This document shows, piece by piece, positions 33,582 through 39,322 of a stretch of 64,000 nucleotides of DNA (within the stretch, counting starts at the first letter, position 1; each line of letters begins with the position of its first letter). The notes under the pieces are model-generated. The model worked only from the letters and a program-made list of their open reading frames with translations, had not been told where the DNA came from and did no database searches. The position numbers and the translations under genes were made by a program. The DNA comes from Rudanella paleaurantiibacter (lineage in GTDB: Bacteria; Bacteroidota; Bacteroidia; Cytophagales; Spirosomataceae), in contig NZ_WELI01000001.1 in NCBI RefSeq assembly GCF_009184635.1, positions 434,001-498,000 of the forward strand, read 5' to 3'.

Positions 33582-33602
33582 CGTTTACAATGAACAATGA
33601 AC

Positions 33603-33676
33603 AATGAACAATGAACAGTGAGCAACGATCAACGGGTTACTGTTCGTTGATCGTTGCTCACTGTTCACTGCTCACT
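33603..33676. repeat. 32-base inverted repeat between ccm operon and GldE-like gene
   Basis: Arms 33603-33634 and 33645-33676 match at 29 of 32 positions, with a 10-base loop. The left arm is preceded by further tandem copies of the 7-base word AATGAAC (about 33589-33617). The right arm overlaps the stop codon of the small membrane gene at 33675. Confidence 0.85.
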
Positions 33677-33905
33677 ACTTTTGTTTCTTTTTCTTCTGAT
33701 CGGCGGCCATCTGCTTAATCGTTGGCGACACCTGTTTTTCGCGCTGAATCCGCTTGTTTCTCACAAACTGGAGCGTGAACAACAGCGCCAGACAGAGCAT
33801 CAGATAAATGTAGCTTTCGGCAAAACTGGTCCGCTGCAATTCCAGTAGCCAGATAAGCAGGGCCCCGGCGGCTCCGGCCAGCAGAAGTGTTTCGTTTAGT
33901 TTCAT
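33675..33905 (-). CDS. Small double-pass membrane protein at the end of the ccm operon
   Basis: A 76-residue protein with two membrane segments (around residues 7-25 and 31-50) and a lysine-rich C-terminal tail ending KKKKQK. Its ATG overlaps the ccmF stop by 4 bases (ATGA), which implies translational coupling and a shared function or assembly with CcmF. No family recognised. A role as an accessory subunit of cytochrome c maturation is inferred from position only. Confidence 0.7.
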   Translation of the reverse strand: MKLNETLLLAGAAGALLIWLLELQRTSFAESYIYLMLCLALLFTLQFVRNKRIQREKQVSPTIKQMAADQKKKKQK

Positions 33906-36562
33906 GCCAATCCTTTATCGCGCATTTTACTGAACTCCCGATACCGCCGTACGGTCGACATACCAAAGCCAAGGGCTACTATCAGCGTTCCGATCCACAA
34001 GACGTTGATCAGTGGCTTTTCGTAGGCTTTCATCACAATGTAGTCGCGCTGTGTGGTGTTGACCCCGAAGGTGAAATTGCCCGTGCGTGGGTCGATCTCC
34101 ATCAGTTGCATCCGAACACCGAGTTCGTCGCTTACAAACGCCGGGCGTGCCACCATTTTGTCGCGGATGATGAACGAAGGAGTCAGCATGTACTCCCCAT
34201 TTTTGTCGAGCACCCGAACCTGCGCCTGCACGGCGGCATCGCCGGGGCCGAGCGTAACGCCATCGACTTTATCAACCCGCGTCACGTTGTCCAGAATGGC
34301 CACGTAATCGTTCACAAAGAATGTGTCGCGCACGGCTACACTGAATGTTTCGGTACGGCTCCACTCGTTATCGGCGTTCGGGTCCGGCACCGACGACACG
34401 TGCGTGTACAAATCCCGGCCGGCGTTGCGCTTAATATCAGGCGATACCAGCAGGCCCATACGGGGGTTAGCCTGTGCGCGTGGGAAAAGCGTGAAGATTT
34501 TGCCGTCGGGCTCGCGGTACTCTACCTCGTAGTACACGTTTTCGGGGTAAAGCGCCAGCGTATCGCCTTTCTTGTGGTAAACCTTTCCGTTTTGCTCAAT
34601 ATCACGCTGGGCAATGCCGTGGAAGTCGCCTTCGATAACCGTTACCCAGGAGCGGGGCACGTAGCCCGGCACATCCCGAATTTCGATGCGCTGCCCCCGG
34701 TAGGTCATCTGAAACTTGTCCATACGCTCCGGCTGATTGATCCAGAGCAGTACGTTCTCTTTGTTTTCCTGGTTATTGTTCTTCGTAAACTCGTCGCGCT
34801 TCGAGATCGGGATGCCGCTATTGTTAATCGAAATGACTTTCGAGTAGCCCGCTGAGAACAGTATCCCGATAAGCATAAGCGCCATACCGATGTGCGCCAC
34901 CGCCCCGCCCGACAGGCGGTAGTTGCCCCGGATAATGCCCCAGAGAACGGTGCCGTTAGTGACCAGCGCAAACACTGAGGCCACCGTCAGAACAATGTAA
35001 ATCGGGTTCGACATCTTGGCGACGACAATGATCCCGGCACTCAGCAATAATGTGATGATACCGGGCGTGGTTAGCGCCGTCCAGTTGCGACCTTCTACTT
35101 TACGCCACCAGAGGTACTGCCCCACACCGGTAAGGATGGCAATGATGATAAAGAACCAAACCTGAAACTTGTTGTAGTGGGCAATCTGATCGGCAGGAAG
35201 AGCCAGGTTCGAGATGATCCCGAATCCTTCCATGATTTTGTTGTACACCGGAATCGACGTGGTGGCAATCACCTGAAAAGCCGCCAGTGTAAGTGTGGTC
35301 GCCCCAATGAACAGCCAGAATTCCTTGGTGTAAATAGAGGCTTCTTCGGCATCGGTGGGTATTACTTTCCATTTCCGGGCCATAATCAGCACCGCCCCCA
35401 CCACAAACACCAGCATGTACACGAGCAACTGCCCCGACAGGCCGAGGTCGGTAAACGAGTGTACCGAGGCATTGCCCAGAATACCACTCCGGGTAAGGAA
35501 TGTTGAGTACAAAATGAGCAGGAACGTCGAGATGGTCAGAATCACGGTTGTTTTCAGACCAATCGAGCTTTTGCGGGCAATAAGCATGGTGTGCAGACTG
35601 GCCACGAGTACGAGCCACGGCACATACACCGAGTTTTCGACGGGGTCCCAGTTCCAGTAGCCCCCAAAGTTGAGGGTTTCGTAGGCCCAGTAGCCACCCA
35701 TCATGATACCAACGCCGAGAATCAGGCCGCCTACGAGCGTCCAGGGCAGTGCCGGCCGAATCCATTCAAGGGGCTGGTTGCGCCACAAGCCGGCAATACA
35801 GTAGGCGAAGGGTACCAGCGTGAGTGCATAACCCAGAAACAGGGTGGGCGGGTGAATCACCATCCAGTAGTTCTGGAGCAGGGGGTTCAGGCCGTTACCA
35901 TCTTTCGGAACGAAGTTAGGGTCAGTAGCGAAGATGGGGGTATCGGGCATGGCTTCGCGCAGCAATAGAAACGGCGAGCTACCAATCTTAAACGTACCGC
36001 CAAACACCACACCCAGAATCATGGATGCCAAAAACGCCTGTACCAACGCAAATACCGTCATCATGGGGGCTTCCCACTGTTTGTTGGTGTTGATCAGGAT
36101 AACGCCCAGGAAGGCATTCCAGAACAGCCACAGCAAAAAGCTACCTTCCTGCCCTTCCCAAAAACACGAGATCATGTACTGCACCGGCAACGCCAGCGAT
36201 GAGTGACTCCAGGCGTAGTGGTATTCAAAATAGTGGTTGTAAACAATGTAGTACAGGCACACAATGACCCCTACAATAGCCGCACCGTGTACATAGAAGG
36301 CCCAGCGGGCCAGCGAACGCCAATCGTCGCGGGCGGGTAGGGTAGCCTTGCCCGTATTTGCCTGTTTAGGCCGTTTGGTAGCCACGCTACCCCGGCTTGT
36401 TTCGCCGGCATAGGCCAGTTCGGGTTCAGATACGGCTTCGGCCTGAAGCGCCTGCCCTTTACCGAGTGCTGAAAGCAGATAGGCGACCGTAGCCACCAAC
36501 GCCGTCACAAACGACAGAATTACAAAAAAGTGGCCAACCTGGCCGATGGTTTCGTGAATCAT
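33902..36562 (-). CDS. ccmF: Cytochrome c maturation protein CcmF (haem lyase component)
   Basis: An 886-residue multi-pass inner-membrane protein. The haem-handling WWD region is seen as MGGYWAYETLNFGGYWNWDP plus VENSVYVPWL (around residues 290-325), and conserved histidines lie in MVIHPPTLFLGY. At 886 residues it exceeds the E. coli protein (about 650), mainly through an extra soluble region around residues 620-800 before the final helix. CcmF moves haem from CcmE to apocytochrome. Its ATG overlaps the toxin gene's stop by 4 bases, so the toxin-antitoxin pair lies directly upstream within the same transcript. Confidence 0.95.
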   Translation of the reverse strand: MIHETIGQVGHFFVILSFVTALVATVAYLLSALGKGQALQAEAVSEPELAYAGETSRGSVATKRPKQANTGKATLPARDDWRSLARWAFYVHGAAIVGVIVCLYYIVYNHYFEYHYAWSHSSLALPVQYMISCFWEGQEGSFLLWLFWNAFLGVILINTNKQWEAPMMTVFALVQAFLASMILGVVFGGTFKIGSSPFLLLREAMPDTPIFATDPNFVPKDGNGLNPLLQNYWMVIHPPTLFLGYALTLVPFAYCIAGLWRNQPLEWIRPALPWTLVGGLILGVGIMMGGYWAYETLNFGGYWNWDPVENSVYVPWLVLVASLHTMLIARKSSIGLKTTVILTISTFLLILYSTFLTRSGILGNASVHSFTDLGLSGQLLVYMLVFVVGAVLIMARKWKVIPTDAEEASIYTKEFWLFIGATTLTLAAFQVIATTSIPVYNKIMEGFGIISNLALPADQIAHYNKFQVWFFIIIAILTGVGQYLWWRKVEGRNWTALTTPGIITLLLSAGIIVVAKMSNPIYIVLTVASVFALVTNGTVLWGIIRGNYRLSGGAVAHIGMALMLIGILFSAGYSKVISINNSGIPISKRDEFTKNNNQENKENVLLWINQPERMDKFQMTYRGQRIEIRDVPGYVPRSWVTVIEGDFHGIAQRDIEQNGKVYHKKGDTLALYPENVYYEVEYREPDGKIFTLFPRAQANPRMGLLVSPDIKRNAGRDLYTHVSSVPDPNADNEWSRTETFSVAVRDTFFVNDYVAILDNVTRVDKVDGVTLGPGDAAVQAQVRVLDKNGEYMLTPSFIIRDKMVARPAFVSDELGVRMQLMEIDPRTGNFTFGVNTTQRDYIVMKAYEKPLINVLWIGTLIVALGFGMSTVRRYREFSKMRDKGLA

Positions 36563-36828
36563 AACCGCTTAATGAGGTTGTTATACGTTGAGTGATGACC
36601 AATCCAGAACCAATACATATCATCACCCTCTAAAAGCCCAAGTGCCCGGTAGTGATCGCCCACCCGGGCTGACCATAAACCATCACGGCCTTTTATTTCC
36701 TTAAAGTGCAAAGAAGGGTGCTCTGGGTCAGCTTTTACTAACGCAAAGTTCTTATCAGCTAACTCCTGAATAGCTTCTGGTAAATCGAAATAGCATTTCC
36801 AGAATTTACCCGTCGCCCTGTGGTTCAT
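36559..36828 (-). CDS. RelE/ParE-type toxin inside the ccm operon
   Basis: An 89-residue basic protein with the compact RelE/ParE fold pattern: MNHRATGKFWKCYFDLPEAI at the N-terminus, LHFKEIKGRDGLWSARVGDHYRAL in the core (read as two beta strands around ARVGDHYRA) and FWIGHHSTYNNLI at the end. Family members cleave mRNA at the ribosome or act on gyrase, and which applies is not evident. The ATG overlaps the antitoxin stop (ATGA, 36825-36828) and the stop overlaps the ccmF start (36559-36562). Base composition over 36601-36900 is 45% GC by my count, well below the neighbouring ccm genes, which suggests acquisition. Confidence 0.82.
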   Translation of the reverse strand: MNHRATGKFWKCYFDLPEAIQELADKNFALVKADPEHPSLHFKEIKGRDGLWSARVGDHYRALGLLEGDDMYWFWIGHHSTYNNLIKRL

Positions 36829-37022
36829 AAAGGCTTAAAATCACCTTTACGAATTTCTTCCTTAGCGTCACGGATTAAATGGTCCAGACGACCCGTTACG
36901 GCGTCTTCTTCAAGCTGCTTATCCCACTGCTGATTCATGTATTCAGTGAACCAATCCGACAGCTGCCACTTTTCCTGATCGCTTAGTTGGCTAATCGCGA
37001 TCTCGATTTCCTGAACGCTCAT
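36825..37022 (-). CDS. Antitoxin partner of the RelE/ParE-type toxin
   Basis: A 65-residue acidic, helical protein starting MSVQEIEIAISQLSDQEKWQ, with an aromatic segment (WFTEYMNQQWDKQLEED) and a charged C-terminal tail that would wrap the toxin. This pattern is common for small antitoxins encoded before ParE/RelE toxins. The start at 37022 is chosen because its ATG forms a 4-base ATGA overlap with the ccmE stop (37019-37021). The upstream extension would sit in ccmE coding sequence. It has no readable DNA-binding domain, so autoregulation is unclear. Confidence 0.78.
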   Translation of the reverse strand: MSVQEIEIAISQLSDQEKWQLSDWFTEYMNQQWDKQLEEDAVTGRLDHLIRDAKEEIRKGDFKPL

Positions 37023-37459
37023 AGCTTTGCCGTTTTTGCCTCGTGTTCTGTTGTTTCCAACTTTCCATCCTGATACTTCGAGGGGCATTTCAGCAGGATC
37101 TTGTTGCACTGGAAGTGATTACCTTCTACAGCGCCGATCACCACAATCTGCTCCGAGCGGTCAAAGTCCTGCGGTTTGGGACTGTTGTACACTACCCGGC
37201 GGGCATTATTCTCGTTATCCACGAGGGTAAACTCAAAATGATTCGGGTCAATCTGGGGATTGTACAGCATATCCGTGATACGGCCGCTACCGTCCTTGGG
37301 CAGCTTACCAACCACGTGTACCATGTCGCCGTTACCTTCTTTGGCCATGGCTTCTGCCTTGGTGAAGGTGGTATAGACACTGGCGTCACCGGCTGTTGAA
37401 ACGATGATGCCAATGGCAATGGCAATCACAATGATTCCGAGAATATGTGTCAGTTTCAT
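37019..37459 (-). CDS. ccmE: Haem chaperone CcmE, CxxxY variant
   Basis: A 146-residue protein with an N-terminal anchor (about residues 5-23) and the CcmE OB-fold core (VHVVGKLPKDGSG, FTLVDNENNARRVVYN, FDRSEQIVVIGAVEGNHFQ). The haem-attachment site reads LLKCPSKYQDG. A cysteine replaces the usual histidine of HxxxY, giving the CxxxY form known from archaea and some bacteria such as Desulfovibrio. The downstream order ccmE-antitoxin-toxin-ccmF is coupled by ATGA overlaps. No ccmH or ccmI gene is in the window. Confidence 0.93.
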   Translation of the reverse strand: MKLTHILGIIVIAIAIGIIVSTAGDASVYTTFTKAEAMAKEGNGDMVHVVGKLPKDGSGRITDMLYNPQIDPNHFEFTLVDNENNARRVVYNSPKPQDFDRSEQIVVIGAVEGNHFQCNKILLKCPSKYQDGKLETTEHEAKTAKL

Positions 37460-37490: not shown

Positions 37491-37724
37491 TTAAGCATCA
37501 AGCGGCTTCTTGTCCAGCCTTTTGCGTTGTACTTCTTTTTCTACACGGCCCAATTGCCGATCCAGCCGAATCAGATACGTAATCAGCCCGGCAAACACGA
37601 CGGCTATAACGAGTACAACCACCCAGATTTTGCCATCGGCCCGGAGCTGATCGGCCATTTCAACCGATTCGGGCTGTTGGAACCAACTAGTCAACGCCAG
37701 CGAAAGCGAAAGAAGTACATTCAT
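37491..37724 (-). CDS. ccmD: CcmD-like small membrane protein
   Basis: A 77-residue protein with a short N-terminal hydrophobic stretch, a main membrane segment (IWVVVLVIAVVFAGLITYLI) and a basic, charged C-terminus (RLDRQLGRVEKEVQRKRLD). In ccm systems CcmD is a small single-pass protein that stabilises CcmC and CcmE. Position directly between ccmC and ccmE, and 30 bases before ccmE, fits. The sequence itself is too short for certainty. Confidence 0.78.
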   Translation of the reverse strand: MNVLLSLSLALTSWFQQPESVEMADQLRADGKIWVVVLVIAVVFAGLITYLIRLDRQLGRVEKEVQRKRLDKKPLDA

Positions 37725-37826: not shown

Positions 37827-38486
37827 TCATTCCTCGATGTAGGCCTCAATTCGCCAGGTGCGAACCCGTATTTCGGTAATCCAGACGCCGAGCAGCGTAA
37901 ACCCAATCACGGCCGGATAAAACACCATCCGCATCTGATTGTCCATATCGTACTGCCCAAAAGCGGGGTTACCTCCGTTGCCGGGGTGCAGCGAATCGGT
38001 CAGGCGGGGTACAATGAAAATAAGCGGAATGAATACCGCAAACGCAAAGATGTTGTACACCGACGAGATGCGGGCCCGGCGCTGCTCATCATCAAACGAG
38101 CCGCGCAGAATCACGTAGGCCAGATACAGCAGCATACCCACGGCTACACTGTTGAGTTTAGGGTCGTTAGGCCAGGGCTCGCCCCAGGTAAAGTTAGCCC
38201 AGATAGAGCCGGTCAGGCAGCCCAGCAGGCCAAATACCAGTGCCGTATTGGTAAACTCGACGGCTACGCGGTCGTGCTCGGGGTTGCCCGAGCGCAGGTA
38301 ACGCCCGGAGAAAATAGCCGCCGTTAAGAGCAGAATGACCATGCCAAACCAGAGCGGAACGTGGAAATACACATTCCGGATACTTTCATTCAGAATCGGC
38401 TGACGCGGAGTCGGGCCGAGTAATCCCCAGAACACTACGTACGTTAGAAGCAGGACAGCAACGCCCTTCCACCAGTTCTTTTTCAT
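37827..38486 (-). CDS. ccmC: Cytochrome c maturation protein CcmC
   Basis: A 219-residue protein with six membrane segments and the tryptophan-rich haem-handling motif TWGEPWPNDPKL (around residues 100-111), with nearby conserved histidine positions. CcmC presents haem for covalent loading on CcmE in the inner membrane. The length and order next to ccmB and ccmD fit the System I gene set. The next gene, ccmD, starts about 100 bases downstream. Confidence 0.93.
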   Translation of the reverse strand: MKKNWWKGVAVLLLTYVVFWGLLGPTPRQPILNESIRNVYFHVPLWFGMVILLLTAAIFSGRYLRSGNPEHDRVAVEFTNTALVFGLLGCLTGSIWANFTWGEPWPNDPKLNSVAVGMLLYLAYVILRGSFDDEQRRARISSVYNIFAFAVFIPLIFIVPRLTDSLHPGNGGNPAFGQYDMDNQMRMVFYPAVIGFTLLGVWITEIRVRTWRIEAYIEE

Positions 38487-38621: not shown

Positions 38622-39296
38622 TCAGCTCCGCCATATAAACGGAAACAACAAGCCCGAAAGCACCAGCACAATGGCGTCGATGGCCAGCAGGGTGATAATC
38701 TCGTCGCTGCTCAAGCTCCGGTCGAGCCCGTCGAGGGCACTTTTCGAAATCCGCAGCAGCATCAGCAACAGGGGCAGAATAACCGGAAAGCTCAGAATGG
38801 CCATCAGAGTGGCCGAGTTCTCGGCTTTCGAAGCAATACCCGCTACGAGTGTGAGTGAACCGGCAAAGCCTACGGCCCCCAGCACCAGACTCAGCAGGTA
38901 CAGCGGAATATCCTGCACCGGATTACCGAGCACAAAGGCGTAGGTCACAAACCCCAGCCCGGCCAGCACCAGCATCAGCACCGTGTTGTACAGAATCTTG
39001 GAAACAATGATCTGGAGCGGACTGGCCACGGTGTAGTAGTACAGCAGCCGACCGGCGCGTTCCTGCACAAAGCTTTTGGCCACTGCATTGATGGCCGAAA
39101 ACAGCAGAATAATCCAGAAAACGGTGTTCCAGACAATGGGCGTCAGCTGCCCCCGGCGGGCGTTGAAGCTGAGGTAGCACACAAATACGGCCCCCACAAT
39201 GTACAAAAGCATACCATTGAGAGCGTAGCGTTGCCGCCACTCCAGCACAAACTCTTTACGCATCAGGGCACCTATCTGCCGCATCGATTCTGACAT
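38622..39296 (-). CDS. ccmB: Haem exporter/CcmABCD subunit CcmB
   Basis: A 224-residue integral membrane protein with six hydrophobic segments. N-terminal MSESMRQIGALMRKEFVLEWRQRY is typical of CcmB. It forms the membrane part of the CcmABCD complex, and ccmA is not in the window, so it must be elsewhere. The start at 39296 is chosen over the TTG-led extension because the -7 box lies at 39322-39315. An ATG at 39284 is the alternative. It heads the ccm operon on the minus strand. Confidence 0.92.
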   Translation of the reverse strand: MSESMRQIGALMRKEFVLEWRQRYALNGMLLYIVGAVFVCYLSFNARRGQLTPIVWNTVFWIILLFSAINAVAKSFVQERAGRLLYYYTVASPLQIIVSKILYNTVLMLVLAGLGFVTYAFVLGNPVQDIPLYLLSLVLGAVGFAGSLTLVAGIASKAENSATLMAILSFPVILPLLLMLLRISKSALDGLDRSLSSDEIITLLAIDAIVLVLSGLLFPFIWRS

Positions 39297-39314
39297 ACCT
39301 AAACAATCGGGTTG

Positions 39315-39322
39315 CAAAGTTA
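39315..39322 (-). promoter_or_regulatory. -7 element TAACTTTG for the ccm operon
   Basis: On the minus strand TAACTTTG matches TAnnTTTG, about 19 bases before the ATG at 39296. No good TTG lies at the standard distance. It is the only promoter-like match I find for the ccmB-to-ccmF run, and none is seen inside the ccmE gene ahead of the antitoxin. Confidence 0.5.

Follow-up and report, generated by a model that had tools for sequence, protein, structure and literature searches.

How does a toxin-antitoxin (TA) pair come to sit between two genes of a core operon, and on what would it live there? The question is raised by the cytochrome c maturation (ccm) operon of Rudanella paleaurantiibacter, in a stretch of 64,000 nucleotides (nt) of contig NZ_WELI01000001.1 (positions 434,001 to 498,000 of the forward strand; hereafter the window, with coordinates counted from its first base), where the minus strand reads ccmB-ccmC-ccmD-ccmE-antitoxin-toxin-ccmF-small membrane gene. 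The answer that we consider probable is that the two inserted genes form a promoterless, operon-nested type II TA module, composed of a RelE/ParE toxin and a short partner, that would be read from the ccm promoter and be largely selfish; the intact, swapped, broken and lost versions found at this one slot suggest a genetic hitch-hiker borrowing a core operon. The pair is co-directional and tightly packed with its host genes, with ATGA joints on either side, as fits an operon-nested TA module:

37019..37459, minus strand: ccmE (Pfam PF03100, E 1.5e-11)
36825..37022, minus strand: antitoxin-like protein, 65 aa (no Pfam family; homologues precede the toxin in many phyla)
36559..36828, minus strand: ParE-like toxin, 89 aa (Pfam PF24732, E 5e-9, over cut-off; conserved residues in the toxin alignment)
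33902..36562, minus strand: ccmF (Pfam PF01578, E 3.4e-28, and PF16327, E 9.6e-10)
37019..37022, minus strand: ATGA joint ccmE/antitoxin, 4-base overlap (ATGA in 14/14 loci with an intact pair)
36825..36828, minus strand: ATGA joint antitoxin/toxin (4-nt overlap in 12/14 intact ccm-slot loci)
36559..36562, minus strand: ATGA joint toxin/ccmF (4-nt overlap in 13/14 intact loci)
33902..33905, minus strand: ATGA joint ccmF/small membrane gene, 4-base overlap

A preliminary description of this DNA had placed five open reading frames (ORFs), from ccmE to the small membrane gene, and four ATGA overlaps in this order, and all of them were recovered at exactly those coordinates. Because the same frames and overlaps recur in relatives, the layout is more than chance: all three 4-base joints around the pair are kept in 12 of the 14 intact loci, the exceptions being G003, in which antitoxin and toxin overlap by 7 nt, and G115.

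What are the two proteins? By sequence, the toxin belongs to the RelE/ParE superfamily, scoring 36.5 bits with the ParE_like family PF24732 against a cut-off of 24.4. Its alignment shows an invariant R55 and nearly invariant R61, H79 and Y82, residues that, by comparison with the RelE/YoeB active sites, would be in keeping with a RelE-type RNase, though the Pfam name is ParE-like. The toxin profile matched nothing among solved structures at E 0.1. For its 65-aa partner, the nearest named family is the NCBIfam VapB15 antitoxin, at a sub-threshold E of 0.016 (15.4 bits, where the cut-off is 80), and its N-terminus bears a weak likeness to DUF2281 (probability 24.8), in a comparison whose DUF2281 set included one mis-parsed row, L223, that is really a piece of ccmE. 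The antitoxin profile gave 13 weak matches among solved structures at E 1, the best of them to the N-terminus of ribosomal protein L7/L12 (E 0.0088), a likeness that we take to be a chance resemblance between helices. The linkage of the two genes is kept in relatives, with a small partner gene directly 5' of the toxin: the 68 named loci yielded both frames in 52 cases, and the 4-nt antitoxin/toxin overlap is present in 45 of those 52 (four are ccm-slot loci). With the frame-finding method used, 14 of the 68 gave no partner frame and five no toxin frame, and one locus scored as lacking a partner (L077) shows a partner-like ORF by eye. The antitoxin family also adjoins Fic-domain proteins in two loci (L178 636-1695 and L187 614-1725) and may serve a second kind of toxin.

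How widely is the arrangement shared? The ccmE-ccmF interval was examined in 69 loci, nearest relatives first, out of the 216 ccmE-bearing genomes among the 222 of the family, and neighbours were surveyed with a rough longest-ORF method rather than a trained gene finder. The window's own genome holds one toxin copy, and the pair occupies the ccmE-ccmF slot in all four genomes of the window's genus. Across the family the toxin was detected in 26/222 genomes and 5/36 genera (E 1e-3), and the antitoxin in 29/222 (E 0.01), in some of them away from the ccm slot. At the level of the order, the toxin profile finds matches in 27 of 390 genomes (E 1e-8), and no ccm neighbour was seen at those loci from other families that were read by eye; relatives of the toxin occur in three of 72,556 plasmid records and in none of 50,697 phage records (both at E 1e-5).

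The sister genus (g33, 36 genomes) is probably Spirosoma, since the Spirosoma loci L060-L062 carry the same arrangement, as does L059 from a Cytophagales metagenome-assembled genome. Nine g33 genomes have the pair intact (G183, G186, G190, G191, G196, G199, G202, G204 and G211), four combine an intact antitoxin with a broken toxin (G185, G192, G208 and G210) and 17 lack the pair. Both genes are broken at the ccm slot of G197; antitoxin-like remnants persist in G207 (recognized by eye) and G213; G203, in which the start and end of the toxin are altered and the frame is otherwise open, is uncertain and was scored among the broken copies on trees. The remaining two are G205, whose interval is cut by a contig end, and G206, which gave no ccmE match. 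Among the five genomes of g10, G115 has the full pair with an 84-nt gap between antitoxin and toxin, G114, G116 and G117 have the antitoxin only (that of G117 not overlapping ccmE) and G113 has neither. The earlier proposal of an accessory module missing from many relatives is borne out by the 26 toxin-bearing genomes of the family and the nine intact g33 slots: the pair is not universal, its frames are conserved where present and no independent promoter is seen.

The slot is not merely patchy, it turns over. On a ccm tree of 57 rows, 34 of them g33, the pair is intact between ccmE and ccmF in 14 loci, and its presence and absence require at least 14 changes, with 11 on the g33 rows alone; even close pairs differ, G202 having the module and G181 none, and G185 a broken toxin and G184 nothing. 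Where decay can be read, the toxin goes first. The antitoxin is kept with the toxin lost or broken in seven cases (four g33, three g10), and none of the 69 intervals examined holds an intact toxin beside a broken antitoxin; were breakage to track gene length, this bias would have a chance of 0.02 with seven events or 0.04 with six. Such an order fits the predicted scheme in which the toxin harms and the partner neutralizes. In at least one lineage, that of G198, loss appears to have left a scar: a short filler there is still flanked by what seem to be the start of the antitoxin and the end of the toxin. Strong hairpins occupy many emptied g33 slots (for example L039, L048, L052 and L135), with z of about -9 to -11 in the strongest; over pair-less gaps z reaches -10.9, and other gaps have none (z -0.4). 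The idea that the pair might secure the operon finds no support here: ccmE and ccmF persist in many genomes from which it has gone or in which it is broken.

Alleles are exchanged as well. Between G190 and G196 synonymous divergence (dS) is 0.18 for the toxin and 0.55 for the antitoxin, whereas ccmE stands at about 2.1 and ccmF at about 2.0; over the stretch from about -12 to +483 that takes in the pair, DNA identity is 82-96%, compared with 74-85% in ccmE and 56-84% in the part of ccmF that was read. The reverse is seen in the sisters G191 and G211, which are 91% identical in ccmE and 87% in ccmF, with 51% in the antitoxin and 65% in the toxin. Approximately unbiased (AU) tests on the pair tree, run on a 30-row set drawn from its 84 rows, reject both the G191+G211 clade (p 1e-4) and a clade of the window's genus (p 7e-5). 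By these comparisons the pair moves between species, its alleles being common to distant species and different in sisters; replacement would proceed by recombination ending near the pair borders.

By what means, then, would such a pair be expressed? The consensus of the -7 promoter box is TANNTTTG. On the minus strand it has no match between 21118 and 39315, which upholds the remark that no TAnnTTTG box lies in the end of ccmE, and the single match up to 39322 is that at 39315-39322, upstream of ccmB. Transcription would most likely start from a promoter before ccmB, no promoter of the pair's own being visible, and translation would pass by termination-reinitiation through the ATGA joints from ccmE to antitoxin to toxin to ccmF, coupling of a kind described for ATGA overlaps in print (PMC6728339). 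Given that order, the antitoxin would be made ahead of the toxin, and toxin output could, as the preliminary description suggested, follow ccm expression. We infer co-transcription and coupling, together with toxicity of the toxin, its neutralization by the partner and the selfishness of the pair; the toxin would break first and the pair be deleted last, with ccmE and ccmF retained.

Could the pair instead be a TA operon of the usual autoregulated type, with its promoter inside ccmE and its tight packing incidental? Homologous pairs in other phyla often lie about 100-250 nt from the upstream gene, which speaks for this view. Against it, TANNTTTG is found near the pair in 0/14 intact loci (searched over the 250 nt that precede the ccmE stop and the 190 nt that follow it), and all three 4-base joints are kept in 12 of the 14. 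The missing box is weak evidence, because the motif is at chance level in the window (32 matches against 31.3 expected) and only about one match was expected across the 14 loci. On balance we consider an internal promoter unlikely. The base composition of the region, described earlier as about 45% guanine plus cytosine (GC) and lower than that of the ccm genes, agrees with our recalculation (about 45% over 36500-36949; 46% for the pair against 50% for ccmE, 55% for ccmF and 53.8% for the window), and the GC content of the pair lies below that of both flanks in all 14 intact loci.

Is the ccmE-ccmF joint exceptional? Between ccmD and ccmE, G165 and G157 carry genes for a DUF2281 protein and a toxin with a PIN domain (both by Pfam), with ATGA at the ccmD/antitoxin and antitoxin/toxin joints and 21 and 18 nt, respectively, to ccmE. 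The module was located as follows:

L163 3622-4217: DUF2281/PIN module (Pfam run)
L160 1124-1716: DUF2281/PIN module (Pfam run)
L158 4839-5225: DUF2281/PIN module

A PIN gene lies directly upstream of ccmE in 8/222 family genomes (seven g29, one g26), counted as best PIN-protein matches (E 1.4e-40 or better) placed by ccmE coordinates, 49/222 genomes matching at 1e-25; the frame of G169 is shorter. Antitoxin and joints were read in part of these eight loci, four of which the script left unparsed, with antitoxin-like frames in three. DUF2281 gave no match in the window genome. Because two TA modules with unrelated toxins occupy neighbouring joints of one operon, the placement looks like a habit rather than an accident. 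Other genes are found in the same operon: in G168 a Uma2-family gene (L158 3722-4381) lies between ccmE and ccmF, touching ccmF by 1 nt, and two g29 genomes (L162, L163) have a 225-aa ORF of no assigned kind between ccmC and ccmD.

Further pairs are lodged at other host genes. ParE-like pairs follow ispG at 13-93 nt in four family genomes and occupy nuoE-nuoF in two; L199 and L202, one locus for each site, were checked by profile, and the rest were assigned by eye. Among these copies, G169 and G197 carry a broken toxin, and next to the one in G213 the nuoE frame seems to be interrupted. Of the 22 PIN loci outside ccm (two unparsed), 12 are flanked on each side by a co-directional gene no more than 100 nt away, and they fall into three sites: aminotransferase/iron-containing dehydrogenase, prfB/hydrolase and a YgiQ-like gene/murI (identified by profile in one locus per site). 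In other families of the order, an aldehyde dehydrogenase gene adjoins the pair in L211, where Pfam names it, and in L213. The notion that the ccm-slot TA family is tightly nested everywhere was dropped, as just 2/59 named non-ccm loci are (a co-directional gene at most 30 nt away on each side), namely L079 and L100, the upstream ORF of L100 being doubtful. It is conceivable, and we offer it only as a tentative extension, that core-operon junctions of the family serve as docking slots for different promoterless TA modules, which would live on host transcription and ATGA reinitiation; recombination close to the slot borders would fill the slots anew, exchange their contents and empty them.

Might the host rather have adopted the pair as a regulator of cytochrome c maturation, with ccm expression controlling how much toxin is made, and the toxin in turn slowing growth or trimming mRNA whenever haem delivery breaks down? 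The joints are exact to ccmE and ccmF alike, the ratio of nonsynonymous to synonymous substitution (dN/dS) is below 1 in the few unsaturated comparisons, and other pairs stand beside ispG and nuoE-nuoF, which encode iron-sulfur proteins, all of which would suit such a role. However, the pair is frequently lost or its toxin broken with ccmE and ccmF present, and PIN-type pairs also occur at prfB, murI and the aminotransferase/dehydrogenase site, extending the hosts beyond iron and haem genes (a restriction to iron/haem operons was dropped after the prfB and murI pairs); we regard adoption as a regulator as quite improbable. That the pair is a vanishing relic, non-functional in most hosts and intact in the window by recency, would account for the many g33 copies that are broken or gone, the lability of the slot and the low dN/dS of a broken copy, yet with open frames and joints in all four genomes of the window's genus and a dN/dS of 0.07-0.21 between the window and G001 it is very improbable indeed.

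Several observations weigh against the promoterless, selfish module or against parts of its proposed history. The 65-aa partner exceeds no family cut-off in Pfam or NCBIfam, and the test for toxin-first decay comprises six or seven events. At the start of ccmF, G191 and G211 are also of low identity (71-74% in some windows), so that one breakpoint is not tight. Single entry of the ccm-slot pairs is not established, as the trees disagree: the 84-row tree separates G003+G183, with starred support, from the remaining 18 ccm-slot pairs, a clade of all 20 is just not rejected (AU p 0.069, in a test that left out rows L126, L120, L125 and L091), and in the 30-row set all 20 group with weak support (71/90). 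Between the window and G001 the pair (dN/dS 0.21 for the antitoxin, 0.07 for the toxin) is less constrained than ccmE (0.00) and ccmF (0.02), and the broken toxin of G208 gives 0.12 against G190, like intact pairs, so that low dN/dS marks past rather than present constraint. The synteny expected of an insertion, with flanks fused by other overlaps where the pair is missing, was found in part: ccmE and ccmF overlap directly by ATGA in six outgroup loci (G052, G078, G126, G155, G159 and G173), but the nearest pair-less relatives mostly have spacers, the extremes being a 1-nt overlap (in G142) and a gap of 320 nt. That the pair entered precisely at an ATGA joint is therefore an attractive idea but is not established.

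How does a promoterless, operon-nested pair relate to known systems? In Escherichia coli, dinB-yafNO is a TA pair directly 3' of its host gene, in the same operon and under host-gene control (PMC7167474). The pair described here would likewise lie inside a host operon, as predicted from sequence; it differs in standing between two operon genes with ATGA on either side, in a slot that turns over among related species. A second parallel is ccdO157 of E. coli, reportedly located at folA-apaH. It too is a chromosomal TA module decaying among related strains (cited in PMC7167474 and PMC2654758), but it belongs to other families, and the ccm pair occupies a tight operon junction rather than a lone islet and has alleles exchanged between species. 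With RelE/ParE type II pairs it has in common a ParE_like toxin over the cut-off, a small gene before the toxin and a 4-nt overlap; unlike them, its partner has no recognized antitoxin domain and its own promoter was not found. Host-operon TA pairs, decaying chromosomal TA modules and ATGA coupling are already known from these sources, and among the matches listed in open-licence literature (titles and beginnings of abstracts) no report places a TA pair in ccmE-ccmF. What the locus adds is a natural series at one core-operon slot, intact, swapped, toxin-broken, antitoxin-only, remnant and empty, which makes the life cycle of a chromosomal TA module, and life without a promoter of its own, directly testable.

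The rest of the operon in the window comprises the following features:

39315..39322, minus strand: candidate -7 box TAACTTTG of the ccm operon, 18 nt 5' of the likely ccmB ATG at 39296
38622..39296, minus strand: ccmB-like gene (Pfam PF03379, E 1.7e-7 on ORF 38622-39317, the start within it chosen by reading the sequence)
37827..38486, minus strand: ccmC (Pfam PF01578 over cut-off; NCBIfam TIGR01191, E 1.2e-20, below its own cut-off)
37491..37724, minus strand: ccmD-like gene, CcmD_alt (Pfam PF20077, E 2.4e-21)
33675..33905, minus strand: small membrane protein, 76 aa, with an ATGA overlap with ccmF (no Pfam or NCBIfam family over cut-off)

CcmF also matches the NCBIfam heme lyase model TIGR00353 (E 7.4e-60, below the cut-off of that model). 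A second ccmE, 60% identical, is found in the same assembly (G000) on contig C19 (L146, 3952 bases) and may be an extra copy or a stray contig. Past the small membrane gene, positions 33590-33675 are rich in repeats, with inverted GTGAGCAACGATCAACG / CGTTGATCGTTGCTCAC arms.

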